IMG/VR virus record: IMGVR_UViG_3300032163_000050
Span: 1-38,482 of that record
Direction: 5' to 3' (one strand)
Origin: a virus
Length of the DNA: 38,482 nucleotides
Below, one piece after another: positions 1 to 13,955 of the stretch. The notes beneath the pieces are model-generated. The model was not told the origin of the DNA. It searched no databases and saw nothing but the letters and a program-made list of their open reading frames with translations. Positions within the stretch are counted from its first letter, which is position 1. Each line of letters opens with the position of its first letter. The position numbers and the translations under genes were made by a program.

Positions 1-191
1 TTTAATCTTTCCGCGAGAGCATTAACTAGCGCTTCCGGTTGTTCAGCTTCTACTGTCCACGGGATAGCGATCAAGTCAAAATCGCTTATTATGCTTCCAT
101 GCACACAAAGCGCATATCCTCTACAATGTGCCAATTCCGATAGTGCTGGGTATAGCGCAACGTAAGCAGGTGCGAATGTAGTTGTTCTCAT
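1..191 (-). CDS. Small phage-type protein, 3' end outside window (putative cassette gene)
   Basis: Begins with ATG at 191 on the minus strand, preceded by a GGAGAT ribosome site, and stays open to the window edge (63 codons visible). The visible protein starts MRTTTFAPAYVALYPALSEL and contains HGSIISDFDLIAIPW. It reminds me of small uncharacterised phage proteins with an HGS...D(F/L)DL core. The GS...DFD pattern is loosely like a nucleotidyltransferase active site, but the spacing is shorter than usual, so I assign no function. The gene begins just after the R'' box of the attC at 218-276, so it probably sits in a third gene cassette that starts at 223 and continues beyond the window. Confidence 0.65.
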   Translation of the reverse strand, partial: MRTTTFAPAYVALYPALSELAHCRGYALCVHGSIISDFDLIAIPWTVEAEQPEALVNALAERL

Positions 192-217
192 TCTTTCTAT
201 CTCCGATTAAAGTAGGG

Positions 218-276
218 GTCGAACCCAGCATTCAAGCGGGACGCGCTAAAGCGCGCCCCTTAATTTTACGTTGTGC
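218..276 (-). repeat. attC-like recombination site, left locus, site 2
   Basis: Read on the minus strand, R' is GCACAAC (270-276) and R'' is GTTCGAC (218-224). L' is ATTAAG and L'' is CTTGAAT, which pair if one G bulges out, the classic extrahelical base of integron attC sites. A GGGGCGCGCTTTAGCGCGTCC hairpin-type centre lies between them (21 nt including loop). R' is the exact complement of GTTGTGC at 482-488, the 5' start of the same cassette, as expected for a real cassette. Hairpin and boxes are seen directly; recombination activity is inferred. Confidence 0.85.
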
Positions 277-487
277 GTCATACTAAAAATTAGTGACCCC
301 GTATCTTTCGCAAGTTCTGCGAACCGGGGGGGGGTCGTTCCCTCCTGCGCTCTGTATTGAGGTTCCTTGCGACACACGCCAGTTCGAGTCGCTCATTCAC
401 GTACCGTTAATCCGGTTCCAGGCCTCTCTGTCCACAAGACTTATCCTGCTTGAGTTCAGGCGTTACATTGCAAAGTTAGACGCACAA
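224..487 (-). mobile_element. Integron-like gene cassette L2 (264 bp)
   Basis: Bounded by two G|TT crossover points on the minus strand: it starts with TTGTGC at 487 and ends at the G of GTTCGAC at 224. Its terminal attC (218-276) has R' GCACAAC, perfectly complementary to its own start GTTGTGC, so the circularised form would carry a self-consistent attC. It follows cassette L1 directly. Its only candidate gene is a 37-codon frame (283-396), so it may be a nearly empty cassette, an RNA cassette or a decayed one. A run of nine G on the plus strand lies at 326-334. Confidence 0.8.
283..396 (-). CDS. Tiny hypothetical ORF in cassette L2 (37 aa)
   Basis: An ATG-to-TAG frame on the minus strand, 37 residues, starting MSDSNWRVSQGTSIQ and ending RYGVTNF, placed just before the attC at 218-276 as cassette genes usually are. 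An in-frame TGA directly precedes the ATG, and I see no convincing Shine-Dalgarno sequence. The frame crosses a nine-base homopolymer that encodes Pro-Pro-Pro, so a single base error would change its C terminus. No family is recognised. It is listed because it is the only credible reading frame in this cassette. Confidence 0.3.
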   Translation of the reverse strand: MSDSNWRVSQGTSIQSAGGNDPPPVRRTCERYGVTNF

Positions 488-545
488 CCCTGCATTGGAG
501 CGGGACAGCCCAGAAGCGGGCTGCCCCTCAATTTGAACGTTAGGC
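482..545 (-). repeat. attC-like recombination site, left locus, site 1
   Basis: On the minus strand R' is GCCTAAC (539-545) and R'' is GTTGTGC (482-488). L' ATTGAG pairs with L'' CTCCAAT if one base is extrahelical (C here, where the other sites have G). The centre holds CAGCCC...GGGCTG as a hairpin. R' perfectly complements GTTAGGC at 744-750, the start of the cassette that this site terminates. The stop codon of the 61-residue gene (540-542) lies inside R', as is common for integron cassette genes. Confidence 0.87.
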
Positions 546-749
546 ATTTGGGTATTTTACATAAAAAGCAACTCTTCCTATCTCGTCGCATTCTTCAACA
601 AATGACCATACCTCGTCTGCAAACTTTTCCTTGCCGTAAAGATCATCTCCATATTTCAATGTTTCAAAATCCCATCGCTTATCAATGGCTCTTTTTGCAA
701 TCCGTATCATTTCTTGCTGTTCCATATTCCCTCCAGTTAAAATGCCTAA
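488..749 (-). mobile_element. Integron-like gene cassette L1 (262 bp, one gene)
   Basis: Runs on the minus strand from TTAGGC at 749 to the G of GTTGTGC at 488. It contains one gene (540-725) with its own ribosome site and a terminal attC (482-545). Its R' box GCCTAAC and its 5' start GTTAGGC are perfect complements, the signature of a genuine cassette. It directly follows the 66-residue gene that ends the recombination operon, so it would be transcribed from the phage leftward promoter and needs no promoter of its own. Confidence 0.87.
540..725 (-). CDS. Cassette L1 gene, 61-aa acidic hypothetical protein
   Basis: ATG at 725 is preceded by GGAGGG at good spacing. The 61-residue product begins MEQQEMIRIAKRAIDKRW and ends in GRVAFYVKYPNA. 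It is mostly helical, charged and rather acidic in the middle (FVEECDEIG), with no signal or membrane segment. Family unknown. The gene fills its cassette and its TAA stop is part of the attC R' box. Its size and plain composition suit a small regulator or an anti-defence factor, but nothing in the sequence decides this. Confidence 0.7.
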   Translation of the reverse strand: MEQQEMIRIAKRAIDKRWDFETLKYGDDLYGKEKFADEVWSFVEECDEIGRVAFYVKYPNA

Positions 750-762
750 CTACACGTTAGAG
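744..762 (-). repeat. Collapsed attC remnant or cassette insertion junction
   Basis: On the minus strand the stretch reads CTCTAAC (an R'-like box at 756-762), GTGTA, then GTTAGGC (744-750). Its first 12 bases, TAACGTGTAGTT, match the beginning of the intact attC at 13623, where the L' box and hairpin follow. The likely explanation is an attC that lost its centre by deletion between two short AGTT/GTT repeats. A cassette inserted at a non-attC G|TT site is the alternative. Confidence 0.5.
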
Positions 763-957
763 CGCTTGCTCACTCATCTGTCGAAGCGCCTCGGCCTTTT
801 CCGCTTCTGTTGCAAAAATCATCGGCACTATAGAGCCGAGATACTGTCCATATCCTCCTATGCCGGGGCCGTCTTTAACAATTTCGCGCAGGTAACTTAT
901 GTATGTTTCTTGCTCATTTTTATCGAGCGCTTGTAATACTTTATCAATCGTGCTCAT
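757..957 (-). CDS. Hypothetical 66-aa protein at the end of the recombination operon
   Basis: Starts at ATG 957, preceded by GGAG, only 2 bases after the stop of the exonuclease gene, so translation is probably coupled. The 66-residue protein begins MSTIDKVLQALDKNEQE and is helical, with a Gly-rich turn (GPGIGGYGQYLG) in the middle and an acidic tail. Family not recognised. An upstream in-frame start inside the exonuclease gene is possible but lacks a ribosome site. The stop codon overlaps the attC-remnant R'-like box at 756-762, which suggests that this gene too once preceded a full attC. Confidence 0.65.
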   Translation of the reverse strand: MSTIDKVLQALDKNEQETYISYLREIVKDGPGIGGYGQYLGSIVPMIFATEAEKAEALRQMSEQAL

Positions 958-959
958 TG

Positions 960-2600
960 TCAATCTCCGTTGTAAAATCCGCCCAACCCGGCGGTCAAGA
1001 GGGACTCCGCAAATACCTCGCGCATGCACTGCTCTGCTGCCGAGTAGGTCATGTTGAATTCCTTTGCCACGGCCTCGATCATCTGGATGCGGGTCGGGCG
1101 CGGCATTCCTGGAAGTGGCTCAAGTTGTGGCGTCACAGGTTCAGATTGCGTCACATGCGTGGCTGCTTCATCCTTGCGTTTTTGCTCTGCAATTACAGCT
1201 GCTTCAGCCAGTGCCGTTGCTCGTGCTTGCTGTTCAGCTGCAGCCTGTACTTTAGCAATTGCTTTTGCCTCTTCTTCAGCCTGGATGCGCGCGCGCTCTG
1301 CTTCAAGTCGCGTAGCTTCATCTGCCTTGTGCTTGTCAATGCGAGAGGCGATCAGCAGGGTAAAATCGTCCAGCGGCTTGATGATTATCTGCTGAAGATC
1401 AGGGAACAGGAACGACATGCCAGCGGCGTTATCTTTGCACCATGCCAGCTTTGCACGGATGTCTTTTGCCATGTTATCAGCGGCAAATTTTCCGTCACGC
1501 AGCACGGTATCTATAGCCTCTTGCATAGCGCTGAGTTTCTTTAGTCCCTTAATTGCTCCGGCAAAGTCAGGGCGAGTAATATTCAATTGGATAGGGCGAG
1601 TTTCTGATTCAAGACTTTCAACGTGAGCGCTAAAATCAATTCCTGCCTTGCTGATAATAGCCAGCTTCCTCGATTCTTTTTCAGACTTCACCAGCTTATC
1701 CAGCATCAGCCGCTTTGTAGCAAGCTGCGCTTTGATGTAGTCGATTGTCTTGATTGCCTCGTCAATGGTGGTTGTTTGCGCAAGGATGGCTTTTTTGGTG
1801 CCTTCCAGATCATCCTCGGCGGTCTTGCAAAACTTCACATTGGCTTCTGCATTGGAAAAATCTTCGTCCGTTACCAGCTCGGTTTTGATGTTGGCAATGA
1901 AAGTTTCAGCGGCCTTCTTGAATTCTGGCAGGTTGCTGGCGGTAATCATGCCTGTTGCTTGAATAGATACAGCAGGCAGACCCATGATTGCATCAGCCAC
2001 TGGCTTTTCTGTCACTTCTGGCGGCGTGTAGTTTTCCAAGTCCTTTGAGAACTGCACCCAACCATGCACGATACGGTCACGCATGGCCTGATCAGATTCA
2101 TACCAGATGTGAATTTCTTCAACCAGTTCATCGTTCGCGTCAAATTTTGAGGCCATGAACAGGCACTTAGTCGCGCCTGAAATCATAATCTGCTGTTCCA
2201 TTTGCGCGCAGTATTGCTCTGGTATCTGTCCGGCAGCAAAGGCTGCACGCAACGTGTCATTGAGCGACTTATGCTCAAAACAGATTGATTCATCCATGGT
2301 CAGGCCGTCAAACGATGCACTTAACTTTCCTTCAGATGCGGTGACTGGATACAACTCTTCACCGATGATCTTTTCAGCCAATGGGCGTGCAAGCGCCTCG
2401 AAGCGGTGGCCGTCAGCAAAGCGGCGCTCTGTGGCCGCATCGAATTCCTGGCTAATGCCGGTCGCCATTTCCTGCAATAGCTGGCTGCGTGTTTTGTACT
2501 GTGATACTCCAAGCATGGCCGGCGCATCGCTGGCATTGAAGTGATTGCTTCGGTGGTTGTGCCAAGCTGCTGAGCCCTGCTGTAAATTATGTTTTTGCAT
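960..2600 (-). CDS. YqaJ-type viral recombinase 5'-3' exonuclease
   Basis: A phage alkaline-exonuclease-like protein of 546 residues. It resects double-strand ends to give 3' single strands for RecT. The N-terminal half carries YqaJ signatures: QQGSAAWHNHR and ASDAPAMLG near the start, then SFDGL followed by CFEHKS (metal-binding Asp, Glu and Lys of the restriction-like fold), then QMEQQIMI. The C-terminal half is a long charged helical extension with an Ala/Glu/Arg-rich coiled coil and PQLEPLPGMPRPTR before a final helical segment, longer than a minimal YqaJ protein. ATG 2600 is chosen because GGGGG precedes it and it follows the RecT stop by 10 bases; an upstream in-frame start would overlap recT. 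Confidence 0.9.
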   Translation of the reverse strand: MQKHNLQQGSAAWHNHRSNHFNASDAPAMLGVSQYKTRSQLLQEMATGISQEFDAATERRFADGHRFEALARPLAEKIIGEELYPVTASEGKLSASFDGLTMDESICFEHKSLNDTLRAAFAAGQIPEQYCAQMEQQIMISGATKCLFMASKFDANDELVEEIHIWYESDQAMRDRIVHGWVQFSKDLENYTPPEVTEKPVADAIMGLPAVSIQATGMITASNLPEFKKAAETFIANIKTELVTDEDFSNAEANVKFCKTAEDDLEGTKKAILAQTTTIDEAIKTIDYIKAQLATKRLMLDKLVKSEKESRKLAIISKAGIDFSAHVESLESETRPIQLNITRPDFAGAIKGLKKLSAMQEAIDTVLRDGKFAADNMAKDIRAKLAWCKDNAAGMSFLFPDLQQIIIKPLDDFTLLIASRIDKHKADEATRLEAERARIQAEEEAKAIAKVQAAAEQQARATALAEAAVIAEQKRKDEAATHVTQSEPVTPQLEPLPGMPRPTRIQMIEAVAKEFNMTYSAAEQCMREVFAESLLTAGLGGFYNGD

Positions 2601-2610
2601 GATTACCCCC

Positions 2611-3546
2611 TTATTTTTCTTCGTGGCTATACGAATCAAGTGTCAATTTCTGGCTTTCTGTAAGCTTCGCACCCTTGCTTTCGATCATTGTTATCAGGTC
2701 AGAGACGGTCTGCTTTTTCTCGATGATGACCTTGCGCCAGCCTGCGGCCTTCTTGTCGAAGTCGGCTTGCTCCATCATGGTAATTTCGCCGGTATCTTGA
2801 TCAACCAATTCAGCGTTATTCCCAAACTGGTTGCCAACATCGACCACAATCCCGTTTTCAATGGTCGCGCCACGGCCAGCTTCTGAGGCATGACTAATTG
2901 CAATGGCATTGCTCATTTCGACAGAGCAGGGCATGTATTTCAGAACCTGCAACAAGGGCACCTTGCGACAGTACATTTCCCAGTCGCGGTGGCTGTAGTG
3001 CATCTTGCCGACCTTGTTATATTTGTCGCGGTGCTTCTTTATTTTGCCAACAGTCCACAACTCGATGACTGGCATGGAGGAATCTTTCACCCAGCCGATT
3101 GCATAGGCATGGGTAATGTCTTCCGGTGCATCAAGGTCTGTTTCGTTATGGATAATCAAGTCACGGCGCGCACCATCAGTGAATGTGTACAGCTGGTCTT
3201 TGAATATCACGCCGGTGAATACCGTACCGCGACCGCTGCGCGATACCAGGTCAACCAGTCCCTTCCATCCAGGAACAAAGGTGCATGTCTTGCCGTAGGG
3301 GATTAGATAACCTGCGCCGTTTACGCCCGGCTCAAGTCCAAGCTGTCCAGCGGTCATGATTGATGCCGCTATGGTCATCGGGTCGCACTCTTGCAGCTTC
3401 GGGCTGGTGCTGAATGCGGTCATTGCCAAACGCGCCATGCGGTCAGCGGTGAGGTGCTTCGGTAACGCAAGCGCAAGCTGAGGCTTCACCTTATCCATAA
3501 ATCCGCCGAACGATGCTATTGGGCTTAATGCTGTTCTGTCGTTCAT
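2611..3546 (-). CDS. recT: RecT-family single-strand annealing protein
   Basis: A 311-residue protein that anneals the 3' strands made by the exonuclease encoded just downstream, forming a RecE/RecT-type pair. RecT-family features include the N-terminal PKHLTADRMARLAMTAF, the conserved TIAASIMTAGQLGLEPG core, and YLIPYGKTCTFVPGWKGLVDL in the middle (two adjoining motifs). The C-terminal region carries DWEMYCRKVPLLQVLKY-like helices and an acidic tail. The ATG at 3546 has a strong AAGGAG. The gene lies fifth from the end of the leftward operon, transcribed from the promoter near 5100. Confidence 0.93.
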   Translation of the reverse strand: MNDRTALSPIASFGGFMDKVKPQLALALPKHLTADRMARLAMTAFSTSPKLQECDPMTIAASIMTAGQLGLEPGVNGAGYLIPYGKTCTFVPGWKGLVDLVSRSGRGTVFTGVIFKDQLYTFTDGARRDLIIHNETDLDAPEDITHAYAIGWVKDSSMPVIELWTVGKIKKHRDKYNKVGKMHYSHRDWEMYCRKVPLLQVLKYMPCSVEMSNAIAISHASEAGRGATIENGIVVDVGNQFGNNAELVDQDTGEITMMEQADFDKKAAGWRKVIIEKKQTVSDLITMIESKGAKLTESQKLTLDSYSHEEK

Positions 3547-3557
3547 TGTCCTTCTCC

Positions 3558-3731
3558 TTAAAATTTAGTATTCCGTGCGCAGAACCATGCGGCCTTGCGG
3601 GTGAAACTCTGCCGGCGCAATTGTTTGTACCGGCTGATCAAGATGGGAAGGCAGGCAATACACTTGACTACTGCGCTCACTTTTTCTTTTGCTGCCGACC
3701 ATATCCGGCCTATTAAGTCATCAATTGTCAT
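3558..3731 (-). CDS. Basic hypothetical protein, 57 aa
   Basis: A short gene in the 180 bases between recT and its upstream neighbour. ATG at 3731 overlaps the previous TGA (ATGA). The product begins MTIDDLIGRIWSAAKEKV, has a short hydrophobic, Cys-containing helix (VVKCIACLPILI) and a strongly basic end (SRYKQLRRQSFTRKAAW). This looks like a small membrane-associated or nucleic-acid-binding protein. Family unknown. The perfect overlap with its neighbour, the RecT ribosome site right after it, and its good fit to the gap support it. Confidence 0.6.
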   Translation of the reverse strand: MTIDDLIGRIWSAAKEKVSAVVKCIACLPILISRYKQLRRQSFTRKAAWFCARNTKF

Positions 3732-4000
3732 TTCATGCCTTCCACAAGTTTTATTTCCTTGATGTTGCAGGCAATGTAGGCACTGCCAATTTCAATCTGA
3801 TACCCGTTCAGGCAGGCGGCGAATGCGCTGGCCGCTTGAATCTGACTAGCATATTTCTTGGCCGCGTGGACATCTATCAAACCATCAATCAGGATTGCAG
3901 CAAGGGCAATGACAAGGACAATAATCAGCGGCCTTGTCCTGCGCTCCATTTCTTCGATGCGCTGTTCTTCGTCTATGCGTTTGGCATGGCACCCGATCAT
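3728..4000 (-). CDS. Single-pass membrane protein, 90 aa
   Basis: Start at ATG 4000, which overlaps the TGA of the 35-residue gene (ATGA). Residues about 1-21 are charged and helical (MIGCHAKRIDEEQRIEEMERR), followed by one membrane segment (PLIIVLVIALAAILIDGLID) and a C-terminal part with three cysteines. An N-in orientation is suggested by the charged N terminus. A longer in-frame start at 4114 exists but would bury the 35-residue gene and overlap the previous gene without need. Function unknown; small membrane proteins in PL-type operons often act against the host or against superinfecting phage, which is inference only. Confidence 0.6.
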   Translation of the reverse strand: MIGCHAKRIDEEQRIEEMERRTRPLIIVLVIALAAILIDGLIDVHAAKKYASQIQAASAFAACLNGYQIEIGSAYIACNIKEIKLVEGMK

Positions 4001-4104
4001 GATTGCACCCGTCCAACAATTACGAGGATCAGCGATATGATGGCGTAACATGATGCAGCCAGCAGCGCCAGCGCATCCCACTGGAATTCGTGTATGAATT
4101 TCAT
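3997..4104 (-). CDS. Membrane microprotein, 35 aa
   Basis: A 35-residue frame beginning MKFIHEFQWDALALLAA, with one hydrophobic segment (LALLAASCYAIISLILVIV) and a short basic tail (GRVQS). Both ends are joined to neighbours by ATGA overlaps: its start with the stop of the 115-residue gene, and its stop with the start of the 90-residue membrane protein. This chain of three coupled starts is strong support for such a small gene. The role is unknown; it could pair with the next membrane protein. Confidence 0.6.
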   Translation of the reverse strand: MKFIHEFQWDALALLAASCYAIISLILVIVGRVQS

Positions 4105-4448
4105 GATTGCTCATCCTCGTATTCTTCGGCTTCGTCCTGGGCTTGTTTTCTCAGGCTTGCAGTGACAAGTTTGATAATCAGGGTGCCGACTTCGGTTGCA
4201 TCGTTGTCGCGGATTGCACGGCCAACTGCAACAAGATCAGACTGCGCTAAATTATCCAGCACGTCCCGTGTGTTATACCCAGCACCGCGCTGAAACTCAC
4301 TGCCGCCCGCACGTCCGTTTGGCAAGTCCTGAAGCTTGGCCTTGTAAAGATCATCCGCCATGTTGTCGATACGCAGTGCACGGCCCTCTGCGTGCATATC
4401 CTTTTGCTTGAGTGCGAACATCTGTGATTCGTGAAAGGTTGAAAACAT
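4101..4448 (-). CDS. Hypothetical early protein, 115 aa
   Basis: ATG at 4448 follows an AGGAG site. The protein is soluble, mostly helical and rich in charged residues (MFSTFHESQMFALKQKDMH at the start, an acidic DEAEEYEDEQS tail). The central part (GYNTRDVLDNLAQSDLVAVGRAIRDND) looks like a compact helical domain. No family is recognised. It lies between the small proteins and the recombination genes of the leftward operon. Confidence 0.7.
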   Translation of the reverse strand: MFSTFHESQMFALKQKDMHAEGRALRIDNMADDLYKAKLQDLPNGRAGGSEFQRGAGYNTRDVLDNLAQSDLVAVGRAIRDNDATEVGTLIIKLVTASLRKQAQDEAEEYEDEQS

Positions 4449-4464
4449 CACATATCTCCTTGAG

Positions 4465-4596
4465 TTATTTGATGCGCTTTAACCCGGCGCGGGATGGATA
4501 TTCAGAACACCATGTCTGCCTGTATCGTTCCCTTGCTCTTGGGTTCAGGCTTCGTTTGCGCTTAATCGACTCCACGGGTCGGGCCTTGTCGCGCAA
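4465..4596 (-). CDS. Possible basic small protein, 43 aa
   Basis: The gap between the 67-residue and 115-residue genes contains a frame ending at TAA 4465. From TTG 4596 it encodes a very basic peptide with KRKRSLNPRARERYRQTW and CSEYPSRAGLKRIK. From GTG 4572 it would be shorter. No clear ribosome site precedes either start, so the call rests on the tight fit (10 bases after the previous stop) and the protein-like basic sequence. It could be an RNA- or DNA-binding peptide; this is only a suggestion. Confidence 0.35.
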   Translation of the reverse strand: MRDKARPVESIKRKRSLNPRARERYRQTWCSEYPSRAGLKRIK

Positions 4597-4606
4597 AACT
4601 TGTTAC

Positions 4607-4810
4607 TCAAGCGTGATTAAATTCCGCTTCATTCGCCAGTCTCGATAACCCGTTGTGCGGAACAAACTCGTAGAATTTATCACCCGCAATATTGCGCAAC
4701 AGATACGCATTTGGCTTGTATCGGTCTACATTCTTTTCACGCTCAAGAACAATCAGCGATAAAAATCCAACCTTTACCACTTCACCTAAATTCCAGTTTT
4801 GTGTTTTCAT
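4607..4810 (-). CDS. Hypothetical early protein, 67 aa
   Basis: ATG at 4810 is preceded by AGGAGC. The product begins MKTQNWNLGEVVKVGFLSL and has alternating beta-like stretches (VKVGFLSLIVLE, DKFYEFVPHNG). The pattern suggests a small beta-barrel or host-modulating fold; no family is recognised. It is the first protein gene after the tRNA in the leftward transcript, a position often used for immediate-early proteins. Confidence 0.65.
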   Translation of the reverse strand: MKTQNWNLGEVVKVGFLSLIVLEREKNVDRYKPNAYLLRNIAGDKFYEFVPHNGLSRLANEAEFNHA

Positions 4811-4826
4811 GACCGCTCCTATAATT

Positions 4827-4902
4827 TGGTTGCGAGGGCAGGATTTGAACCTGCAACCTTCTGGTTATGAGCCAGACGAGCTGCCAATTGCTCTACCTCG
4901 CC
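4827..4902 (-). tRNA. tRNA with CAU anticodon (tRNA-Met or Ile2)
   Basis: A full cloverleaf of 76 bases, CCA encoded. Arms on the minus strand: acceptor GGCGAGG/CCTCGCA, D stem GAGC/GCTC with GG in the loop, anticodon stem TCTGG/CCAGA around CTCATAA, and T stem GCAGG/CCTGC around TTCAAAT. Six acceptor pairs are perfect, but position 1 (G) faces position 72 (A), which is unpaired. CAU could decode Met or, if modified to lysidine, AUA Ile. It would be made from the leftward early promoter. Confidence 0.93.
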
Positions 4903-5089
4903 ACATTCTTATTACATTTGAATCCGTACAATTCCTTGCTGCTCAATGCCTGCGCGGTTGCGCTGTGTTACTCACTACTTCCGGGTTTAACAGTTCCGCC
5001 CTATCTCTCGGTACTCGCGCCCCGTCTGTTCATACTCAACATTCGCGCTTTACTGTTTATTTCATCGCTTCGGTGGTTTGTTGCGACTG
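4903..5089 (-). other. Untranslated leader of the leftward early transcript
   Basis: About 190 bases between the predicted leftward start point and the tRNA. I see no gene, only a 13-codon ATG frame on the minus strand encoding MLSMNRRGASTER, without a clear ribosome site. In lambdoid phages this region carries antitermination signals, but I do not recognise a nut-like boxA/boxB here. Confidence 0.4.
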
Positions 5090-5095
5090 GATGCA

Positions 5096-5140
5096 ATTAT
5101 CGCGAAAGCGCTAATTGATGTCAAGCGCTTTCGCGATAAT
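5096..5140 (-). promoter_or_regulatory. Leftward early promoter (PL-like) inside a perfect operator inverted repeat
   Basis: On the minus strand TTGACA (5119-5124) and GATAAT (5096-5101) are 17 bases apart, a near-consensus sigma-70 promoter. It lies in a perfect 17-base inverted repeat, ATTATCGCGAAAGCGCT and its complement (arms 5096-5112 and 5124-5140, spacer 11). The same element in variant form surrounds the rightward promoter at 6429-6470, so the Xre repressor very likely binds both. It drives the tRNA, small early genes, recT, the exonuclease and the left cassettes. Confidence 0.85.
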
Positions 5141-5165
5141 TTTTGTTATAATGCAACCCGAGGGC

Positions 5166-5190
5166 GAAAAAATACCCGCACGGGGCGGGT
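5166..5190 (-). terminator. Rho-independent terminator of the repressor operon
   Basis: On the minus strand ACCCGC, a five-base loop and GCGGGT are followed by A and six T. It lies downstream of the 5253-5498 gene and just before the leftward promoter, separating lysogenic transcription from early lytic transcription. Confidence 0.75.
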
Positions 5191-5209
5191 TTAATTAAAG
5201 AGGTGGAAG

Positions 5210-5410
5210 ATGAATAAAAATCAAATATCAGACGCTGAACTGCATTGGAAGCTTAATTCTTCGCGAGTAATCCAGCGTAAAATTGAATTCGGGCCCGAAC
5301 CTCAACGAGGTATTCTACGTCTGCTCCGCGTGGTGCGGAATTGCAATAGTTTTCAGCTTTGTTTAGGAGGTTGGCTAACACTCTCGGTCTACTGGAGGAC
5401 TCATCAATGA
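5210..5410 (+). CDS. Doubtful plus-strand ORF, 66 aa, antisense to the lysogeny gene
   Basis: An ATG with a good AGAGGTGG ribosome site 59 bases after a TATAAT box (5147-5152) opens a 66-codon frame beginning MNKNQISDAELHWKLNSSR. No good -35 box accompanies the TATAAT. From 5253 on, the frame is the complement of a more convincing minus-strand gene. Either a short regulator or antisense RNA starts here, or the ribosome site is chance. Confidence 0.25.
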   Translation: MNKNQISDAELHWKLNSSRVIQRKIEFGPEPQRGILRLLRVVRNCNSFQLCLGGWLTLSVYWRTHQ

Positions 5411-5498
5411 GCGCAAGAACTAGTATGCGCAAGAGTGTAATTTCTGCCTCATGGGCAGTGAGTTCGCCATTAATGTTGTCGATGTTAAGTTGTTTCAT
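5253..5498 (-). CDS. Hypothetical protein of the immunity operon, 81 aa
   Basis: ATG at 5498 follows CAGGTAAC. The protein begins MKQLNIDNINGELTAHEAE and is helical and soluble, with TLLRILVLALIDES as a buried-type helix and a C-terminal helix (VEYLVEVRARIQFYAG). Family unknown. It is the last gene before the terminator at 5166-5190 and would be co-transcribed with the repressor, so it should be expressed in the lysogen. Confidence 0.6.
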   Translation of the reverse strand: MKQLNIDNINGELTAHEAEITLLRILVLALIDESSSRPRVLANLLNKAENYCNSAPRGADVEYLVEVRARIQFYAGLLAKN

Positions 5499-5518
5499 CA
5501 AGTTACCTGATTAATATT

Positions 5519-6038: not shown

Positions 6039-6404
6039 TTATTTGGTGCCATTTGTGCCTTCGGTTTTTTTGAGCAATTTAACAATCGAATCGACGTTTT
6101 TTATTGCTTCAGTCACCACGTAATCTGCAACTTCAGGATGATCTTCCAGTAATTTATTTAAAAGTGCGATTCTTGGATTCACTTCTGACATAGGTTCTTT
6201 TTTACCTTTCCCTTCGGCAAGCCACAAGGCTTCAACTCCAAGCGCTCTTGCAATTGCTGGAATATGTGAAGAATTTTTGCGATGTCCAGTCTCTAAGCTG
6301 CCAATAATGGATTGGTTTTTTAATTTAGCCTTGCCTGCTAATTCGGTTTGCGTTAATCCGGATTCTTCGCGACTGATCTTTAATCTTTCTGCAAGTGTTT
6401 TCAT
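6039..6404 (-). CDS. Xre-family prophage repressor (CI-like), short form
   Basis: 121 residues with an N-terminal helix-turn-helix at about residues 5-60 (LAERLKISREESGLTQTELA, followed by a SIIGSLETGHR recognition region). After ALGVEALWLAEGKG comes a short helical tail, presumably for dimerisation. There is no S24 LexA-type peptidase domain, so RecA-driven self-cleavage is not expected. It lies divergent from the Cro-like gene with shared operators, the classic lambdoid switch. It should block the promoters at 5096-5124 and 6442-6470 in a lysogen. Confidence 0.85.
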   Translation of the reverse strand: MKTLAERLKISREESGLTQTELAGKAKLKNQSIIGSLETGHRKNSSHIPAIARALGVEALWLAEGKGKKEPMSEVNPRIALLNKLLEDHPEVADYVVTEAIKNVDSIVKLLKKTEGTNGTK

Positions 6405-6476
6405 ATCGCTATTGTGATTAATAATAATATCGCGATGGCGCTTGACAATTCATAGCGCGTTCGCGATAATTCGCAT
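6405..6476. promoter_or_regulatory. Divergent PR/PRM promoters with repressor operators
   Basis: Plus strand: TTGACA (6442-6447), 17-base spacer, GATAAT (6465-6470). Minus strand: TTGTCA uses the same bases, with a TATTAT-like -10 about 16 bases further on, reading to the repressor. Two operator half-sites flank it, AATATCGCGATGGCGCT on the left and AGCGCGTTCGCGATAAT on the right, close variants of the perfect repeat at 5096-5140. The rightward start point falls at or within one base of the Cro-like ATG, so that mRNA is probably leaderless. Confidence 0.85.
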
Positions 6477-7725: not shown

Positions 7726-7727
7726 GA

Positions 7728-8758: not shown

Positions 8759-9531
8759 ACGACATCCAGACAACCGTATTCGGCAAGCTGATCAGTGAAC
8801 CAAAAAACGACACTTGCGACAAGCACGGCGCGTTTGAAAGCCGGAATATTTTTGGCAAGGTTTGGTCTGGTTGCCCGGCCTGCAACAGCGAACAAAAGGC
8901 AATTGCCGAGCGCGAGCAGGCCGAAAAGGATGCGCAGGAGCGGCATGCTTCTTGGGTGCGCAGGATGGGCGAAGCTGGGATACCTGAACGGTTCAGAAAC
9001 CGCACGTTGGCAAGCTACAAGGCGACCAATGCAGGGCAGAAGCGGGCGCTTGTGTTCATGACTGAGTACGCGGAGCAGTTCAGCCGAGTGAGCGAGACTG
9101 GGCGCAGCGCGATCCTTTGCGGCTTTCCTGGCACAGGCAAGACACACCTTGCTATTGGTGTGGCGCTGCATGTGATGACGATAGGCAAGGCGGCTGCATT
9201 TACCACTGTTCAGCGCATGATTCGCCGGTTAAAAGATTCGTGGCGCAAAGATTCGCTTGAGTCTGAAAGCGATGTAATAAACCTGCTGGTGTACCCAGAC
9301 CTACTGATTATTGATGAAATTGGTGTGCAATTCGGATCGGAATTTGAAAAAAATTTCATGTTTGATTTACTCAATGAGCGCTACGAAAAACGCAAGCCGA
9401 CCATCCTGCTTTCCAATCTGACAACGGCTGAAATTGAAATATTTCTGGGTGAGCGCGTTTATGACCGGCTCAAAGAGGATGGGGGGCAGTACGTGTCGTT
9501 TGATTGGGTAAGTTTTAGGGGAAAAGCATGA
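8755..9531 (+). CDS. DnaC-like AAA+ helicase loader
   Basis: 258 residues. An N-terminal zinc-binding element is formed by C21, H24, C40 and C43 (TCDKHGAF then WSGCPAC). The Walker A motif is CGFPGTGKTH (residues about 122-131) and Walker B is LLIIDEIG. An arginine-rich segment (ERYEKRKPTILLSNL, then EIFLGERVYDRL) matches sensor/arginine elements of DnaC/IstB ATPases. It should load the host DnaB helicase at the phage origin, together with the DUF1376 protein upstream (ATGA overlap). Confidence 0.9.
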   Translation: MNDIQTTVFGKLISEPKNDTCDKHGAFESRNIFGKVWSGCPACNSEQKAIAEREQAEKDAQERHASWVRRMGEAGIPERFRNRTLASYKATNAGQKRALVFMTEYAEQFSRVSETGRSAILCGFPGTGKTHLAIGVALHVMTIGKAAAFTTVQRMIRRLKDSWRKDSLESESDVINLLVYPDLLIIDEIGVQFGSEFEKNFMFDLLNERYEKRKPTILLSNLTTAEIEIFLGERVYDRLKEDGGQYVSFDWVSFRGKA

Positions 9532-9773
9532 ATGCCGACTTTGAGTCACTGGCAAAAAAATACGGAATGAACATGGCGCTTTCGTTGAATGGGACAACTT
9601 ACCACGACCATGTAACGCAAATGGCTTACGAAATGTGGCAAGCGAGACAGCCTGAGATTGATCGGCTGACACAGGAAGTCTGCGATATGACCTTTGCGGC
9701 GAAGGCGTTTAAGAGTGTGCTTGATAAACAAAAGGCCGCATTTGCCACGGTGGCACAAGGTTGGGAAGCGTGA
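9528..9773 (+). CDS. Hypothetical early protein, 81 aa
   Basis: ATG overlaps the helicase-loader stop (ATGA). The protein starts MNADFESLAKKYGMNMALS and is helical, with EMWQARQPEIDRLTQEVC in its middle and an AAKAFKSVLDKQKAAF helix. It resembles the many small proteins of phage early regions that carry a W..R...I..L pattern. Function unknown. Confidence 0.65.
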   Translation: MNADFESLAKKYGMNMALSLNGTTYHDHVTQMAYEMWQARQPEIDRLTQEVCDMTFAAKAFKSVLDKQKAAFATVAQGWEA

Positions 9774-9861
9774 GTAAGACAAACAAATTGGCGGGCTGCA
9801 AATAGAGCGCAAGTTAGTTCTTATTTATCTAAGTGGCGTAATGATAATAAGGATTTTTGAT

Positions 9862-10401
9862 ATGAGCAAAATGAATATTGTTAGGACTGGTGTCGCACTC
9901 CCAGCAGATGGGGAATTAGCGTTGGTTAGGGGGTTTTTATTTGGATGCTTTAATGGTTTTCTTGATTCGGATAAAAAATCTTGGAATGGATTTTGGCGCC
10001 GGTTAATAAATTTAGAGCCAGGTGAAATTGCCCAAGCAGAAATGTCTATTCCGAGAAATTATAAATTTCATAAAAAATTCTTTGGTTTGCTCGATGTAGG
10101 TTTCGAGGCTTGGGAGCCAAACCGCGTGCGCAAAAGCTACAAGGGCCGGGCGATGGAAAAGAACCGAGAGCAGTTCCGCGAGGACGTCACCATTTTGGCC
10201 GGATTCTACGAGCAGACATTCGACCTGAAAGGCCGGATGGTGATCAGGGCGCAGTCAATCAGTTTTGCCAAGATGGACGATGCGGAGTTTGAAGGGCTGT
10301 ACTCGGCGGTGATTGATGTGCTGCTAAGAGAGGTTTGTACGACCTATAAAGGACGTGCTGAACTAGATGCGGTTGTGGAACGGGTGATTAATTTTGCATG
10401 A
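9862..10401 (+). CDS. DUF1367 family protein (nin-region type)
   Basis: 179 residues from ATG 9862, which is preceded by AAGGAT; a start seven codons earlier has no ribosome site. Family features are RNYKFHKKFFGLLDVGFEAW, NREQFREDVTILAGFYEQTF and IRAQSISFAKMDDAEFEGLY followed by SAVIDVLLREV, which match DUF1367 proteins from lambdoid nin-like regions. The function of the family is not established. It is followed by the methyltransferase gene with a 4-base overlap. Confidence 0.8.
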   Translation: MSKMNIVRTGVALPADGELALVRGFLFGCFNGFLDSDKKSWNGFWRRLINLEPGEIAQAEMSIPRNYKFHKKFFGLLDVGFEAWEPNRVRKSYKGRAMEKNREQFREDVTILAGFYEQTFDLKGRMVIRAQSISFAKMDDAEFEGLYSAVIDVLLREVCTTYKGRAELDAVVERVINFA

Positions 10402-11120
10402 TTACGATTGGCAATGCAACTCTGCACAACATGGACTGCATAGAATACATGCGCGGTCTGCCTGACAAGATATTTGATCTGGCAATTGTCGACCCGCCGT
10501 ATGGAATCAATGCGCCAAACATAAGCATGGGGCAAAACAAAAATCGCGCTGATGGCTGGGTGCGCGGCGATAGCACAGCTGTGAAAATTAAAAAAGGCCG
10601 TCTTAATTCAGGGGGGGGTAAGTTGAAAGACAGAATGCTCAATACCTCCAGCATCGGCTGGGATGATGCCGTGCCGAGCCCTGAATATTTTGATGAATTA
10701 TTCAGGGTATCAAAAAACCAAATTATTTTTGGTGGAAATTATTTTGACCTTCCTCCGACACGGTGCGTGGTTTGTTGGGATAAGTGCCAGCCATGGGAAA
10801 ACTTCTCGCAGTGGGAAATGGCATGGACTTCATTTGACAAACCTGCAGCATTGTTCTCTTACTCAAATACTGGCAGTGCAAATTCTGAAACTAAGATCCA
10901 TCCAACACAAAAGCCAATAAAATTGTATGAGTGGTTATTGAATAAGTATGCAAAGCCTGGACAAAAGATATTGGACACGCACCTAGGCAGCGGAAGCAAT
11001 GCGATTGCCTGTAATGATATGGGGTTTGAATTAAGCGCTTGCGAAATTAACAAGGATTATTTTGATAATGCATGTAGTCGCATAGAGCGGGCAACAGCAC
11101 AGCAAAGGATGTTCGCATGA
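10398..11120 (+). CDS. DNA adenine/cytosine-N4 methyltransferase (beta-class)
   Basis: 240 residues. Catalytic motif IV DPPYG is at residues 32-36 and the AdoMet motif near residues 190-200 (ILDTHLGSGSNAIA), preceded by HPTQKP. This order (catalytic motif first, AdoMet motif last) is that of beta-class enzymes. The target-recognition part lies between. An eight-G run at 10611-10618, in the Gly-Gly-Gly stretch after NS, could slip and switch the gene off. The enzyme probably protects phage DNA from host restriction. No partner nuclease is seen. Confidence 0.88.
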   Translation: MITIGNATLHNMDCIEYMRGLPDKIFDLAIVDPPYGINAPNISMGQNKNRADGWVRGDSTAVKIKKGRLNSGGGKLKDRMLNTSSIGWDDAVPSPEYFDELFRVSKNQIIFGGNYFDLPPTRCVVCWDKCQPWENFSQWEMAWTSFDKPAALFSYSNTGSANSETKIHPTQKPIKLYEWLLNKYAKPGQKILDTHLGSGSNAIACNDMGFELSACEINKDYFDNACSRIERATAQQRMFA

Positions 11121-11257
11121 AATCCCGCTACCGACTATACGGCTATATCAAAAACGGACAGTTTCTAATCGGCTGGAAGCATCGCTATATGACAAAGCTG
11201 GTGCGGGATAGACTCTTGAACCGCTTTAGGATGCAGAAAGGCAGGGTGACTGCATGA
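11117..11257 (+). CDS. Basic small protein, 46 aa
   Basis: A 46-residue frame linked at both ends by ATGA overlaps to the methyltransferase and the HNH protein. It starts MKSRYRLYGYIKNGQFLIGW and is strongly basic, with a beta-like N-terminal half and helix MTKLVRDRLLNRFRMQKGR. The overlaps and composition support it. Function unknown, possibly nucleic-acid binding. Confidence 0.55.
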   Translation: MKSRYRLYGYIKNGQFLIGWKHRYMTKLVRDRLLNRFRMQKGRVTA

Positions 11258-11511
11258 ACCAAACCTACTCCGTCAAAGAGAAATTGCATATCCAGCGGGT
11301 AAAGGAATTGCCTTGCAGCGTATGCAACCAGCCCGGCCCCAGCGCGGCACACCATATCCGGCAGGATAATCCCTATACCTGCGTTGCCCTGTGCCAAAGT
11401 TGTCATCAAGACCCGCATAACGGCATCCACGGACGCAAGGCAATATGGGATGTGTACCGGATGGACGAATTGACCGCGCTGACGGTGACGGTTCAGAGGT
11501 TGCTGGCATGA
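11254..11511 (+). CDS. HNH/Ref-like zinc nuclease-fold protein, 85 aa
   Basis: Contains C21-x2-C24, the HH pair at 33-34 (SAAHHIRQDN), C47-x2-C50-H51 and H55/H59 (CQSCHQDPHNGIHG). This arrangement of two zinc-knuckle cysteine pairs around an H-H core is that of HNH proteins related to RecA-dependent nuclease (Ref) and DUF968 phage proteins. The likely activity is a recombination-associated endonuclease. It sits among other nin-type genes and near RusA. It has all the visible metal ligands, so it is likely active. Confidence 0.75.
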   Translation: MNQTYSVKEKLHIQRVKELPCSVCNQPGPSAAHHIRQDNPYTCVALCQSCHQDPHNGIHGRKAIWDVYRMDELTALTVTVQRLLA

Positions 11512-11690
11512 GCAAGTGCATATCCTGTGAGTTCATTGTCATGGACAAAAAGAAGGGCGGAACCGGCCTTTGCTGGAAGCAGCCCGAATCCAAGCGGGTA
11601 CTGATTGACACGATAATTGAGCGGAAATGCGACAAGTACAAGCTGGGCGCCATGCAGAATGTACGAATGAGAGATGGGTGGAAGCCATGA
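11508..11690 (+). CDS. Four-cysteine small protein, 60 aa
   Basis: ATG at 11508 overlaps the previous stop. It has cysteines at 4, 7, 22 and 41 (CISC then GLCWKQPESK and ERKCDKY), the pattern of a small zinc-binding or iron-sulphur domain. Similar CxxC...C...C proteins lie at 12198 and in the cassette at 13702. No named family. Confidence 0.65.
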   Translation: MSKCISCEFIVMDKKKGGTGLCWKQPESKRVLIDTIIERKCDKYKLGAMQNVRMRDGWKP

Positions 11691-11845
11691 GCGACAGAAA
11701 TAAATTAGAACAATTGGGCCGTGAATTATTTGCCCGGTGGATACATAAAAAAGTGACTACGGAGCCTGGTTTCGCGCGAATGATACGAAGGAATATTGCT
11801 TTTTCTAAAATTAAAAATCAGCCTTTTTATATGAATACGAAATGA
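11687..11845 (+). CDS. Basic small protein, 52 aa
   Basis: ATG overlaps the previous stop (ATGA) and the stop overlaps the RusA start. The protein begins MSDRNKLEQLGRELFARWIH and continues as a basic helix (MIRRNIAFSKIKNQP). Only context and chained overlaps support it; function unknown. Confidence 0.55.
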   Translation: MSDRNKLEQLGRELFARWIHKKVTTEPGFARMIRRNIAFSKIKNQPFYMNTK

Positions 11846-12201
11846 TAACCCTGCCATGGCCTGCGACGGCACTAAATCCTAACAGACGCACCCATTGGGC
11901 CGTAAAGGCGCGCATCACTAAGTCCACGCGCACGGCGGCGGCGTGGCTGACTAAAGCATCTGGCGAAAAAGTGACTGGCGAGGGCAAAATTGACCTGAGC
12001 ATTGTATTTTTCCCGCCGGATAAGCGGCACCGTGACCAGGATGGGATGCTCAGTAGCTGCAAGGCCCTGCTGGATGGCGTGGCCGATGGGCTGGGCGTAA
12101 ATGATAACCGTTTCCGGCTACATTTGGACATAGGCCCGCCAGTATCGGGTGGCATGGTAACGGTTGACGTGGGTGTGATTGTGGAGAGGCTGGACAGATG
12201 A
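11842..12201 (+). CDS. rusA: RusA-family Holliday junction resolvase
   Basis: 119 residues, the usual RusA length. The catalytic region HRDQDGMLSSCKALLDGVAD followed by GLGVNDNRF carries the acidic residues (D65, D67 and D88), matching the Asp set of E. coli RusA. It cuts four-way junctions created by RecT-driven recombination and replication. It begins by an ATGA overlap with the preceding gene and ends by an ATGA overlap with the next. Confidence 0.9.
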   Translation: MITLPWPATALNPNRRTHWAVKARITKSTRTAAAWLTKASGEKVTGEGKIDLSIVFFPPDKRHRDQDGMLSSCKALLDGVADGLGVNDNRFRLHLDIGPPVSGGMVTVDVGVIVERLDR

Positions 12202-12389
12202 CGCTTGAAAGCTGGAAATATCGAGACCCCATGGAAGCAGCTATCCGTGCCGAGGCCACCAGTTGTAAGGGCTGCGCCAATGAGATAACAGAGCGCATGT
12301 TCGGTGAGGTAGCGATGCTCTGCAGGAAGGACAAAAAGCACGGGGTACGGTGTAATCGTTATGTTTTGAAGGGGCGTGAAAATGTTTAA
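12198..12389 (+). CDS. Four-cysteine small protein, 63 aa
   Basis: Starts MTLESWKYRDPMEAAIR, with C23, C26, C42 and C52 (CKGCANEITE, MLCRKDKKHG, RCNRY), a plausible zinc site. Its start overlaps the RusA stop and its end overlaps the next gene by 8 bases. The spacing CxxC-x15-C-x9-C resembles the proteins at 11508 and 13702. Family unknown. Confidence 0.65.
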   Translation: MTLESWKYRDPMEAAIRAEATSCKGCANEITERMFGEVAMLCRKDKKHGVRCNRYVLKGRENV

Positions 12390-12897
12390 GAGTGCCAGGC
12401 ATGCTTTACAGTTTACGTTTCGTACTCTGGGAACCCCAATAGTCAAAATGTCCAGTATCAATAATATGCGCGGATCTGGTGGCAACGGTGATATGACCCC
12501 ACATGACCGGCACGCCCAGGCTGCGATGATTATGGCCATGGTGGAGCGGGTGGTAGATGTCAATGGGCTGGCATATCTAAAGGCCCAGTATGGCAGAGAG
12601 CTTACTGGCGGTGAAGAGGCTGATAAGATACGAGAAACATTAGTGCGCTGTGCGATGGCTGCAATGCCGACCGGAGTACACAGTAGTCGTGGAGTATCAA
12701 AGCTGATCAGTATCTATTTTGGTGGAAAAGTCAGTATGACTTCAGTCCGAACGGACTTTAGGTGCCGCAATGAACAATGCCAAGTCTATAAAACAATAGT
12801 CTCTGACATGCTGGATGTAGTCGGTAGGCGTGCAGAGGATGAGGTGTATAGGATATTGGATAAGGCTGGATTGATTGCAATGGTGATTTCAGCATGA
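12382..12897 (+). CDS. Putative late regulator (Q-like by position), 171 aa
   Basis: ATG at 12382 has GAAGGGG upstream; a GTG two codons earlier is also possible. It contains TPHDRHAQAAMIMAMVERVV in the first third, a helical middle (IRETLVRCAMAAMPTGVHSS), then a segment resembling DNA-binding helices with two cysteines (FRCRNEQCQVYKTIV). It is placed after RusA and before lysis genes, where lambdoid phages keep the antiterminator Q. I cannot confirm the family from sequence. The Q role is inference. Confidence 0.5.
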   Translation: MFKSARHALQFTFRTLGTPIVKMSSINNMRGSGGNGDMTPHDRHAQAAMIMAMVERVVDVNGLAYLKAQYGRELTGGEEADKIRETLVRCAMAAMPTGVHSSRGVSKLISIYFGGKVSMTSVRTDFRCRNEQCQVYKTIVSDMLDVVGRRAEDEVYRILDKAGLIAMVISA

Positions 12898-13067
12898 AGC
12901 AGAAATCAGTTACACAATCAGTAGAGCGAATTGTAACTTCATCATGGGATGAGGTAAAACATCTCCTGACAGAGAAAAATACCAGATTGATGGCATGGCC
13001 GTACAGAATGGATCGAACGGCAATTTACATTATTGTGAAACATAACGCAGAAATCAGGGGCGGCTGA
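12894..13067 (+). CDS. Hypothetical protein upstream of the resident attC, 57 aa
   Basis: ATG overlaps the previous stop (ATGA). The product begins MKQKSVTQSVERIVTSSWDE and has a beta-like core (RLMAWPYRMDRTAIYIIVKH). Its last ten codons lie inside the attC at 13040-13097, so its C terminus (NAEIRGG) is attC-encoded. This resembles the way cassette genes run into their attC. Function unknown. Confidence 0.65.
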   Translation: MKQKSVTQSVERIVTSSWDEVKHLLTEKNTRLMAWPYRMDRTAIYIIVKHNAEIRGG

Positions 13068-13097
13068 AAGCCGTCCCGCTGGATTGACGGGTTATGC
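13040..13097 (+). repeat. attC-like site, right locus, resident site (left half plus cassette R'')
   Basis: R' ACATAAC (13040-13046), L' AATCAG, hairpin CGGCT/AGCCG, L'' CTGGATT (pairs with L' if one G bulges out), R'' GTTATGC (13091-13097). Its R' is not the complement of the adjacent R'' but is the exact complement of GTTATGT at 13949-13955, beyond two cassettes. The original uninterrupted site was therefore split at G|TT by cassette insertion. Confidence 0.88.
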
Positions 13098-13133
13098 CAC
13101 GTTTTTAGCCTCGAAAATAATTTGATAAAAAGC

Positions 13134-13162
13134 TTGACTATTATTAGATATAAGGCTAGACT
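13134..13162 (+). promoter_or_regulatory. Promoter within cassette R1
   Basis: TTGACT (13134-13139), a 17-base spacer and TAGACT (13157-13162), in an AT-rich stretch unlike its neighbours. It lies about 48 bases before ATG 13210, leaving room for a short leader and the AGGAGA ribosome site. Confidence 0.7.
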
Positions 13163-13209
13163 GTATTCATGGTTAGCGATTGGCGCGAACCGGCTACAGG
13201 AGAAACAAA

Positions 13210-13443
13210 ATGAACATCATTGAAAAAGACTTTGCCAGCATCCTCAACAATGACCCAGATGGTGAGCGTGTATTTTTGAGCATAGCAAGCGAATTAAACG
13301 ACGATGGCGAAGAGCGGTTTTTTATTGTTACCGATAGCGAGGAAGACACTGGGCCACGCGAGAAAACAAAAGAGGCTGCAAAGGCAAATGCCGAGGCCAT
13401 GTGGGGTACGCCAAATAGCCCCTGGGATTTACAGTACTCATGA
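13210..13443 (+). CDS. Cassette R1 first gene, acidic 77-aa protein
   Basis: AGGAGA precedes ATG 13210 by seven bases. The product starts MNIIEKDFASILNNDPDGER, is strongly acidic and has an alternating core (ERFFIVTDSEEDTG). It ends in an overlap (ATGA) with the second cassette gene. An acidic protein followed by a basic DNA-binding-type protein could be a DNA-mimic/regulator pair or a toxin-antitoxin-like couple. Neither is recognised as a known family. Confidence 0.7.
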   Translation: MNIIEKDFASILNNDPDGERVFLSIASELNDDGEERFFIVTDSEEDTGPREKTKEAAKANAEAMWGTPNSPWDLQYS

Positions 13444-13628
13444 GCGGCGGCAAACGTGAGGGGGCCGGACGGCCCCCAATTGACCCACGATTGCTCAAGG
13501 TGCCGGTGGGGTACAAGCTGCCGCGCTGGCTCGTTGATTGGATACGAGAACAGGATAAACCCGCCGCGCTGCTGATCGAAGAGGCGTTAAAAAAACGGCA
13601 CAAACTGAAACCGCCCGAAGGGGCATAA
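13440..13628 (+). CDS. Cassette R1 second gene, KREGAGRP-type basic protein, 62 aa
   Basis: Begins MSGGKREGAGRPPID, a Gly-Arg-Pro DNA-contact-like start common in short phage and plasmid proteins, then LPRWLVDWIREQDKPAALLI with a helix and EEALKKRHKL. This resembles a small ribbon-helix-helix-type protein. The ATG overlaps the previous stop and its TAA (13626-13628) lies inside the attC R' box, typical for cassette genes. Likely DNA-binding; exact function unknown. Confidence 0.75.
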   Translation: MSGGKREGAGRPPIDPRLLKVPVGYKLPRWLVDWIREQDKPAALLIEEALKKRHKLKPPEGA

Positions 13629-13685
13629 CGTGTAGTTGAGGGGCGCGACGCTTTACCAGCGTCCCGTTCGAACGGAAAGTTAGGC
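13623..13685 (+). repeat. attC-like site of cassette R1
   Basis: R' GCATAAC (13623-13629), L' GTTGAG, perfect hairpin GACGCT/AGCGTC, L'' TTCGAAC with one extrahelical G, R'' GTTAGGC (13679-13685). R' complements GTTATGC at 13091 (the cassette's own start), and R'' belongs to the next cassette. It shares the GTTGAGGGGC segment with the site at 13896. Confidence 0.9.
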
Positions 13686-13949
13686 AACGAAAGGATGGGA
13701 AATGAATAACTGTTTAAATTGTAAGTATGAACCTCTATGGCACGATCCTGTTGGAAAAGAACATCCTCGACAATCAGGTGAGTGTCGTTGGGATGGGGTT
13801 ATTCCTGCTATGCCTAAAATATACAGGATCGAAAAAGGAATCATTGTTAAATATTCCGATAATTCAGGAGTTCCATCAAACTGCAAAACATGGGTGCCTA
13901 ACGTGGAGTTGAGGGGCTGCGCTTCTCAGCAGTCCGCTCGAACGTAGGG
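13680..13949 (+). mobile_element. Integron-like gene cassette R2 (270 bp, one gene)
   Basis: Runs from TTAGGC at 13680 to the G at 13949. Its own R' (GCCTAAC, 13896-13902) is the exact complement of its start GTTAGGC. It contains one gene (13702-13947). Past its end the sequence TTATGT completes the resident R'' that belongs with R' at 13040. The cassette arrived either before or after R1; both sit in tandem. Confidence 0.9.
13702..13947 (+). CDS. Cassette R2 gene, four-cysteine protein, 81 aa
   Basis: ATG at 13702 follows AAGGATGGG. Residues 1-65 hold C4, C7, C28 and C61 (NNCLNCKYEP, GECRWDG, SNCKTWVP), probably a small metal-binding domain, with IPAMPKIYRIEKGIIVKY between. From about residue 66 the reading frame is translated attC (NVELRGCASQQSART), a familiar sign of a cassette gene lacking its own stop before the attC. 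Its overall pattern resembles the four-cysteine phage proteins at 11508 and 12198. Function unknown. Confidence 0.78.
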   Translation: MNNCLNCKYEPLWHDPVGKEHPRQSGECRWDGVIPAMPKIYRIEKGIIVKYSDNSGVPSNCKTWVPNVELRGCASQQSART

Positions 13950-13955
13950 TTATGT
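13896..13955 (+). repeat. attC-like site of cassette R2, with resident R''
   Basis: R' GCCTAAC (13896-13902), L' GTTGAG, hairpin CTGC/GCAG, L'' CTCGAAC with extrahelical G, and R'' GTTATGT (13949-13955). R'' is the far half of the resident site that begins at 13040. Both L boxes are clean. Confidence 0.88.

Follow-up and report, generated by a model that had tools for sequence, protein, structure and literature searches.

The virus record IMGVR_UViG_3300032163_000050 of IMG/VR, whose 38.5 kb (38,482 nucleotides, positions 1 to 38,482) we refer to in full as the window, carries two arrays of attC sites, the recombination sites of integron gene cassettes, and in both arrays the sites run against the genes they accompany. 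All five attC sites are antisense, those of the left array lying on the plus strand among minus-strand genes and those of the right array on the minus strand among plus-strand genes. This reversal relative to bacterial integrons is systematic across the phage contigs surveyed, though not universal. A preliminary description of the window had placed two cassette loci at the ends of both early operons, the left one 3' of recE/recT and the right one before the lysis genes, and there the profile indeed finds the five attC. It had also stated that the cassettes point with phage transcription, which is correct for the open reading frames (ORFs) of both clusters and incorrect for the units defined by attC. 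ORF direction had been read as cassette direction; since an attC site has a direction of its own, the claim about attC fails, and in place of the sense orientation comes a more surprising rule, that attC sites are antisense in phages.

The sites (Table 1) were identified with two nhmmer profiles. The first was seeded with 38 bacterial attC sites and found five attC in the window (E 1e-13 to 5e-6) with no further match, while a stricter profile, built only from attC in arrays physically beside an integron integrase (76 hits, 67 of them distinct in sequence), recovered the identical five (E 3e-13 to 2e-3). Over 35 records, namely the window and 34 others, the stricter profile gave 117 hits, compared with 2 when the sequences were reversed. 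Assignment to attC was based on a match to this integrase-calibrated profile together with R' and R'' core boxes, both of which are present in all five window sites; in site C the boxes are R'' GTCGAAC and R' GTTGTGC, with boundaries read from the sequence. The box coordinates of sites D and F come from the pattern scan and sequence reading. The window contains no intI (0 matches to TIGR02249) and hence lacks the integrase gene that defines a complete integron; with at least two attC within 3 kb and no intI, each array belongs to the clusters of attC sites lacking an integron integrase (CALIN), the left with two sites and the right with three, counted in a window that is itself a fragment.

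Direction was calibrated on attC beside intI genes, 76 of 76 of which point away from intI; one weak fragment (E 0.9, seed profile) pointed the opposite way from these. By this measure the five window sites score 17.8-49.5 bits on the strand opposite the ORFs and at most 2.9 bits on the ORF strand. Standard gene cassettes have ORF and attC in the same orientation, an arrangement found at none of the five window sites, and in phage arrays as a whole 175 of 184 ORFs are inverted relative to attC.

Pattern scans of IMG/VR supplied viral records with the window's attC type, as well as records with a second attC type. When scored by the nearest gene, 117 sites in 34 viral records (a count that includes duplicates and one isolate) fell into 103 that were exclusively antisense, 8 that were mixed, 3 that were sense and 3 with no gene nearby. 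Of 250 bacterial sites, 197 were exclusively sense, 12 were mixed, 8 were antisense and 33 had no gene nearby. A second scoring used the majority of coding bases within 1.5 kb of the site and, on the viral side, 42 non-redundant records, from which G030, G051 and G043 had been removed as duplicates of G038, G031 and G035. It gave 133 viral sites antisense and 9 sense (39 records against 3), and 232 bacterial sites sense and 18 antisense (43 of 49 loci against 6). Fisher's test on the sites yields p ~5e-72, yet sites of the same array are not independent and the record counts are the safer measure. Nine metagenomic records with the second attC type are antisense as well. In the window and two other viral records, G036 and G040, each strand has an array; of the 13 sites in these three records, 12 run antisense to the genes around them. 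The isolate records L203 and L212/L213, which stand outside the 42, are mostly sense, and the record of L212 carries intI.

The preliminary description had expected related phages to carry attC at operon ends and in sense. The position does recur, with an attC array 3' of recE/recT homologues in G036, G040 and L206 and, less closely, in G028; the orientation contradicts it at 133 of 142 sites. No attC was seen at the endolysin relatives L005-L008 or the RecE relatives L231-L232, and L002, one of the nearest RecT relatives, gave no confident attC match. The nearest RecT relative with DNA past recE (L003:6500-11250) contains a run of small ORFs with spacers like longer attC sites, two of which, unscored by the profile, read by eye as antisense attC.

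Because choosing contigs by attC pattern could bias these counts, we also sampled by protein, using homologues of c2, a small ORF of the right array. Its relatives occupy 14 viral loci (52-84% identity), 8 of which carry attC (E <= 0.01), and 28 of the 28 sites in these are antisense to c2. Contamination by bacterial integrons was considered as the origin of the antisense pattern and rejected, since the arrays of bacteria are sense and a terminase match is present in 15 of the 35 viral records. Two further arrangements were observed. A contig of a Gallionella metagenome-assembled genome (L058:2461-5790) is a bacterial exception, its attC array being antisense, with tyrosine recombinase and transposase-like genes alongside; it was omitted from the bacterial site and ORF comparison and retained in the orientation control. 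At L009:3960-4240 (record G020) a phage-antisense attC is followed immediately by a ribosome-binding site and a sense ORF, possibly a cassette of bacterial type that a phage array has captured.

The junctions between cassette ORFs and attC point to where exchange occurs. In the window, L217 and L223 the c2 frame ends in GGGGCATAA/C, the slash marking the break, and the near-identical ORF ends GCATAA/C are followed by differing attC. Compared with the window, the last 36 bases of c2 are 97% (L217), 94% (L223) and 81% (L224) identical, while the 36 bases past TAA/C are 25%, 33% and 42% identical, respectively. This break is where the canonical crossover falls (G^TT on the opposite strand); beyond it the sequence continues into a different attC or, for L217, into an attC remnant that lacks its stem. 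Units of attC plus ORF are also common to otherwise different contigs and start within 10 nt of the crossover (575 bp in G033/G042, 358 bp in L210/L215); high-scoring segment pairs of about 90 bp were excluded from this comparison, as they mostly represent attC-to-attC similarity. Phage stop codons are placed accordingly at the R' box, 29 of 69 falling exactly at TAA/C and 26 of 69 a fixed 6 bases beyond, and phage sites have GTT at R' in 110 of 118 cases, bacterial sites in 285 of 309. Read from the alignments, these junctions demonstrate that cassette ORFs swap between phages against different attC at the crossover.

The window's attC type also resides in bacterial chromosomes, those of Methylophilaceae, Sulfuricella, Gallionella, Undibacterium and others (49 stretches), and intI scores over the curated cut-off in 13 of 18 searched genomes that carry it. 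Site B shares 61 of 64 bases, counted by eye, with an attC of a Sulfuricella chromosomal integron (L103:12409-12472) that reads away from its own intI. Since 33 of 126 phage attC have a bacterial attC, and not a phage attC of another contig, as their nearest relative, the phage and bacterial attC lineages are mixed. The 184 phage array ORFs gave no protein match in 57 bacterial loci except translated pieces of attC, and the simplest reading would be that attC sites are common to phages and bacteria while the gene pools are separate. Over the curated cut-off, intI occurs in 1 of 35 viral records (G035) and in 1 of 27 further viral records (that of L212). The gene in G035 (G035:C1:9339-10283, L115) encodes a full-length integron integrase (477 bits) in a viral record with antisense attC, and could be host sequence or a phage-borne intI.

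We favor, with somewhat better than even confidence, an explanation in which phage arrays without intI are shuffled in trans by the integron integrase of the host, with the recombinogenic attC strand lying on the phage coding strand. The exchanged unit, in phage reading direction, would consist of an attC, a ribosome-binding region of about 25 nt and at least one small phage ORF, ending at the crossover in the next R' box. A bacterial host's integrase would act on the attC bottom strand and shuffle such units between co-infecting phages. Only the attC bottom strand recombines, and excision rises when it lies on the lagging-strand template, and chromosomal integrons mostly hold it on the leading template, according to the available text of two reports (PMC11023631, PMC5371416); in the assay described in the available text of Qi et al. 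2023 (PMC9892861), IntI1 recombined 5 of 6 phage attC sites. Both arms of the window have the attC bottom strand as their coding strand. Inversion may be kept because the recombinogenic strand is then the non-template strand, which is displaced during transcription and would often be single-stranded and able to fold. If forks diverge from the primosomal and DnaC-like genes (7.9-9.5 kb), the bottom strand would in addition be the lagging-strand template in both arms. The orientation of the ORFs would reflect selection to have them expressed as part of the phage operon. Along the window, GC skew switches sign near 5-6 kb, as expected for divergent arms, though gene direction alone would also suffice to produce this. 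A broader proposal, which we hold at slightly less than even confidence, is that phages of integron-bearing Proteobacteria run a cassette economy of their own, in which inverted-attC units, with the recombining strand coding and co-directionally replicated, are shuffled by host integrase during infection and orientation keeps the pool apart from bacterial cassettes.

Several observations weigh against host-integrase shuffling of inverted units, or against the generality of the inversion. Three of the 42 viral records are sense exceptions (L202, L211 and G044), of which G044 is an isolate record with its sites at the record end, probably a host integron; a regular-expression search likewise places a sense site (L066:244-293) in TJE1, a phage whose array has been published, so the rule does not hold everywhere. 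The five bottom strands are predicted to fold only modestly as DNA (z -3.6 to -0.5), site D folding as expected for pairing of R''/R' and L''/L' (z = -3.6), B, C and F partly and E poorly. Furthermore, exchange is deduced from sequences, and the replication origin and fork direction are assumed. Homologous recombination between attC repeats could also shuffle units.

This last point is the core of an alternative in which attC entered phages inverted once or a few times and RecE/RecT recombination between the repeats of about 60 bp has shuffled the units since, so that orientation is inherited and not selected. The attC of different phages are highly alike, site E has near-identical copies in other phage contigs (L010-L012), the majority of phage sites are nearest other phage sites, and the left array adjoins recE/recT, all of which would follow from such a history. 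We nevertheless consider it unlikely, though still a serious contender, because the c2 breakpoints fall at TAA/C and not anywhere in the repeat, and because the phage sites whose nearest relative is bacterial suggest repeated exchange. Those mixed lineages would in turn suit the proposal that phage units pass silently through host integrons, where inversion puts the phage ORFs antisense to the cassette promoter (Pc) and toxic phage genes are carried unexpressed, which would also explain why ORFs are inverted relative to attC. Bacterial loci seldom contain inverted cassettes (18 of 250 sites), and 0 of the 184 phage array ORFs have a bacterial protein match beyond translated attC; silent passage is accordingly improbable.

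The hairpins between ORFs and the tight spacing of stops and starts could also mean that these elements serve mRNA processing, attenuation or coupling, with recombination irrelevant. A conserved GTT core, breakpoints that coincide with the crossover and near-identity with bacterial attC would not be expected of an RNA element alone, which makes this account quite improbable. Scans for promoters and terminators were not above chance in either array. A promoter-like sequence (TTGACT-17-TAGACT, 13134-13162, plus strand) lies just past site D, upstream of c1-c2, in that same scan. The model of the preliminary description, in which integron-like landing pads carry attC sites oriented with transcription, is scarcely tenable: the ORFs at the operon ends do lie in sense, but all five attC are antisense and the window has no intI. 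Its pairing of accessory loci stands, as G036 and G040 also have two opposite-strand arrays and units swap at the crossover, while the pads would not be ready to express an ordinary bacterial cassette. A captured gene was to be expressed, yet a standard bacterial cassette would insert antisense to the phage operon and remain unexpressed; only a cassette with its ORF turned against its attC, the layout of those 175 of 184 phage ORFs, would be expressed on capture. Nor does the arrangement mirror the attI/Pc logic of integrons, given the missing intI and the attC inverted in both arrays and in nearly all related phages.

Phage CALIN arrays lacking intI have already been published, and the available text of Qi et al. 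(PMC9892861) describes features that agree with ours: attC clusters without intI, DNA methyltransferase cargo and phage attC that are substrates of IntI1. It differs in describing cassettes of the usual same direction in TJE1 and PH101 and divergent sites in P12002L, and that text reports no systematic inversion of attC relative to genes. An experimentally inverted Vibrio cholerae integron, as presented in the available text of PMC11023631, had the whole array flipped with ORFs still sense to attC; in the phage arrays the ORF itself is inverted relative to attC, so that fork and genes would be co-directional and the bottom strand nevertheless exposed.

The sedentary chromosomal integrons of Methylophilaceae, Sulfuricella, Iodobacter and relatives have the same attC sequence type, as the resemblance of site B to the Sulfuricella site illustrates, and differ in their sense ORFs, in the intI of most of the genomes searched and in the absence of phage cassette ORFs from the loci examined. 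Mosaic phages have short conserved linker or boundary sequences at module boundaries; in the present arrays that place is taken by an attC site, which has core boxes and a definite crossover. Thus, phage arrays without intI were known, and no report of inverted attC in phages was found in the literature searched, with subscription journals and preprints mostly outside its coverage.

If it holds, the orientation is a simple testable rule that separates phage from bacterial cassettes, antisense in the former and sense in the latter, and offers a natural genome-scale test of whether attC recombination is governed by how exposed the strand is at the fork during replication. Another suggestion from it is site-specific swapping of phage accessory genes, such as methyltransferases, via host integrase. 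The left-array ORF at 540-725 bears on how ordinary genes turn into cassettes: it has homologues in 11 viral loci, 2 of them with other attC alongside (L237, with a scored antisense attC right after the stop, and L242, with an attC-like sequence there by eye), and in the other nine loci the family is an ordinary gene without attC, while in the window it lies between attC.

Table 1. Features of the window, with positions in the 38,482-nucleotide stretch; E values are from nhmmer with the integrase-calibrated profile unless stated
Feature	Position	Strand	Remarks
Left-array cassette ORF, cut by window end	3..191	-	matches phrog_35913 (unknown function)
attC site C, left array	218..276	canonical +	E 3e-13; antisense to phage genes
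attC site B, left array	482..545	canonical +	E 2e-8; antisense to genes
Left-array cassette ORF, 61 aa	540..725	-	stop TAA inside R' of site B
Probable stem-deleted attC remnant A	743..764	+	GCCTAAC-TACAC-GTTAGAG; read from sequence
ORF between recE and remnant A, 66 aa	757..957	-	stop TAA inside remnant R' box
RecE-like exonuclease	960..2600	-	phrog_7655; Pfam YqaJ
RecT-like annealing protein	2611..3546	-	
attC site D, right array	13040..13097	canonical -	E 1e-6; antisense to genes
Right-array cassette ORF c1, 77 aa	13210..13443	+	
Right-array cassette ORF c2, 62 aa	13440..13628	+	stop TAA in R' box of site E
attC site E, right array	13623..13685	canonical -	E 2e-3; 4.6e-6 with seed profile
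Right-array cassette ORF c3, 81 aa	13702..13947	+	51% relative in viral record G046
attC site F, right array	13896..13955	canonical -	E 8e-5; antisense to genes
GH19-type endolysin	14238..14843	+	first lysis gene past right array

The ORFs of both clusters, which are real, run with phage transcription. DNA methyltransferases are the commonest Pfam families (N6_N4_Mtase 6, C5 methylase 4, D12 1, Mom 1) in 140 cassette ORFs, a selection from 180 listed plus three added window ORFs. The window's own DNA methyltransferase has six homologues in or beside attC arrays (G040, G049, L206, L214, G047 and G028), all antisense to the sites. An eight-G run (10611-10618, read from the sequence) within the window's methyltransferase gene (10398-11120) is a possible slippage tract. 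Remnant A looks like a sixth attC that has kept the outer boxes and lost the stem, as if by a deletion between two AAC repeats. A regular expression for such remnants gave five matches, three of them parts of full sites, against 3 in reversed controls, and was too narrow, missing both remnants found by eye (743-764 in the window and the one in L217). A covariance model from 31 calibrated sites came out without base pairs and was not used. Among GenBank phages, blastn with site E returned only two weak matches, both to records of Dinoroseobacter phage R5C.

The window as a whole has a lambda-like early region with divergent arms. The leftward arm holds the repressor, recT and recE, the left cluster lying 3' of these two minus-strand genes; the rightward arm holds an antirepressor, a primosomal protein, a DnaC-like loader, the methyltransferase and RusA, followed by lysis genes, terminase and a virion block, with the right cluster 3' of an ORF at 12376-12897 and 5' of the endolysin. 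Its TerL is 55-58% identical to those of Burkholderia phages DC1 and BcepMigl and Pseudomonas phage F116, and its portal is phrog_156, the portal family of P22-like phages. A homologous TerL together with this portal family places it with the Bcep22/F116-like podoviruses. The window is probably a fragment of a larger phage genome, since those of DC1, BcepMigl and F116 are about 62-65 kb. Its left end interrupts a cassette ORF, and for both reasons the left array probably extends beyond it. As part of the explanation favored above, we regard the window, with similarly modest confidence, as a fragment of a temperate-type podovirus that carries two CALIN-type arrays without intI. A perfect 18-bp inverted repeat and a related copy (5095-5143 and 6423-6471) stand on either side of the repressor gene (6039-6404) and look like left and right operators. 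Finally, a tRNA-Met (CAT) gene (4827-4902, minus strand), the only match of an Rfam search of the window, is embedded in the leftward early operon.

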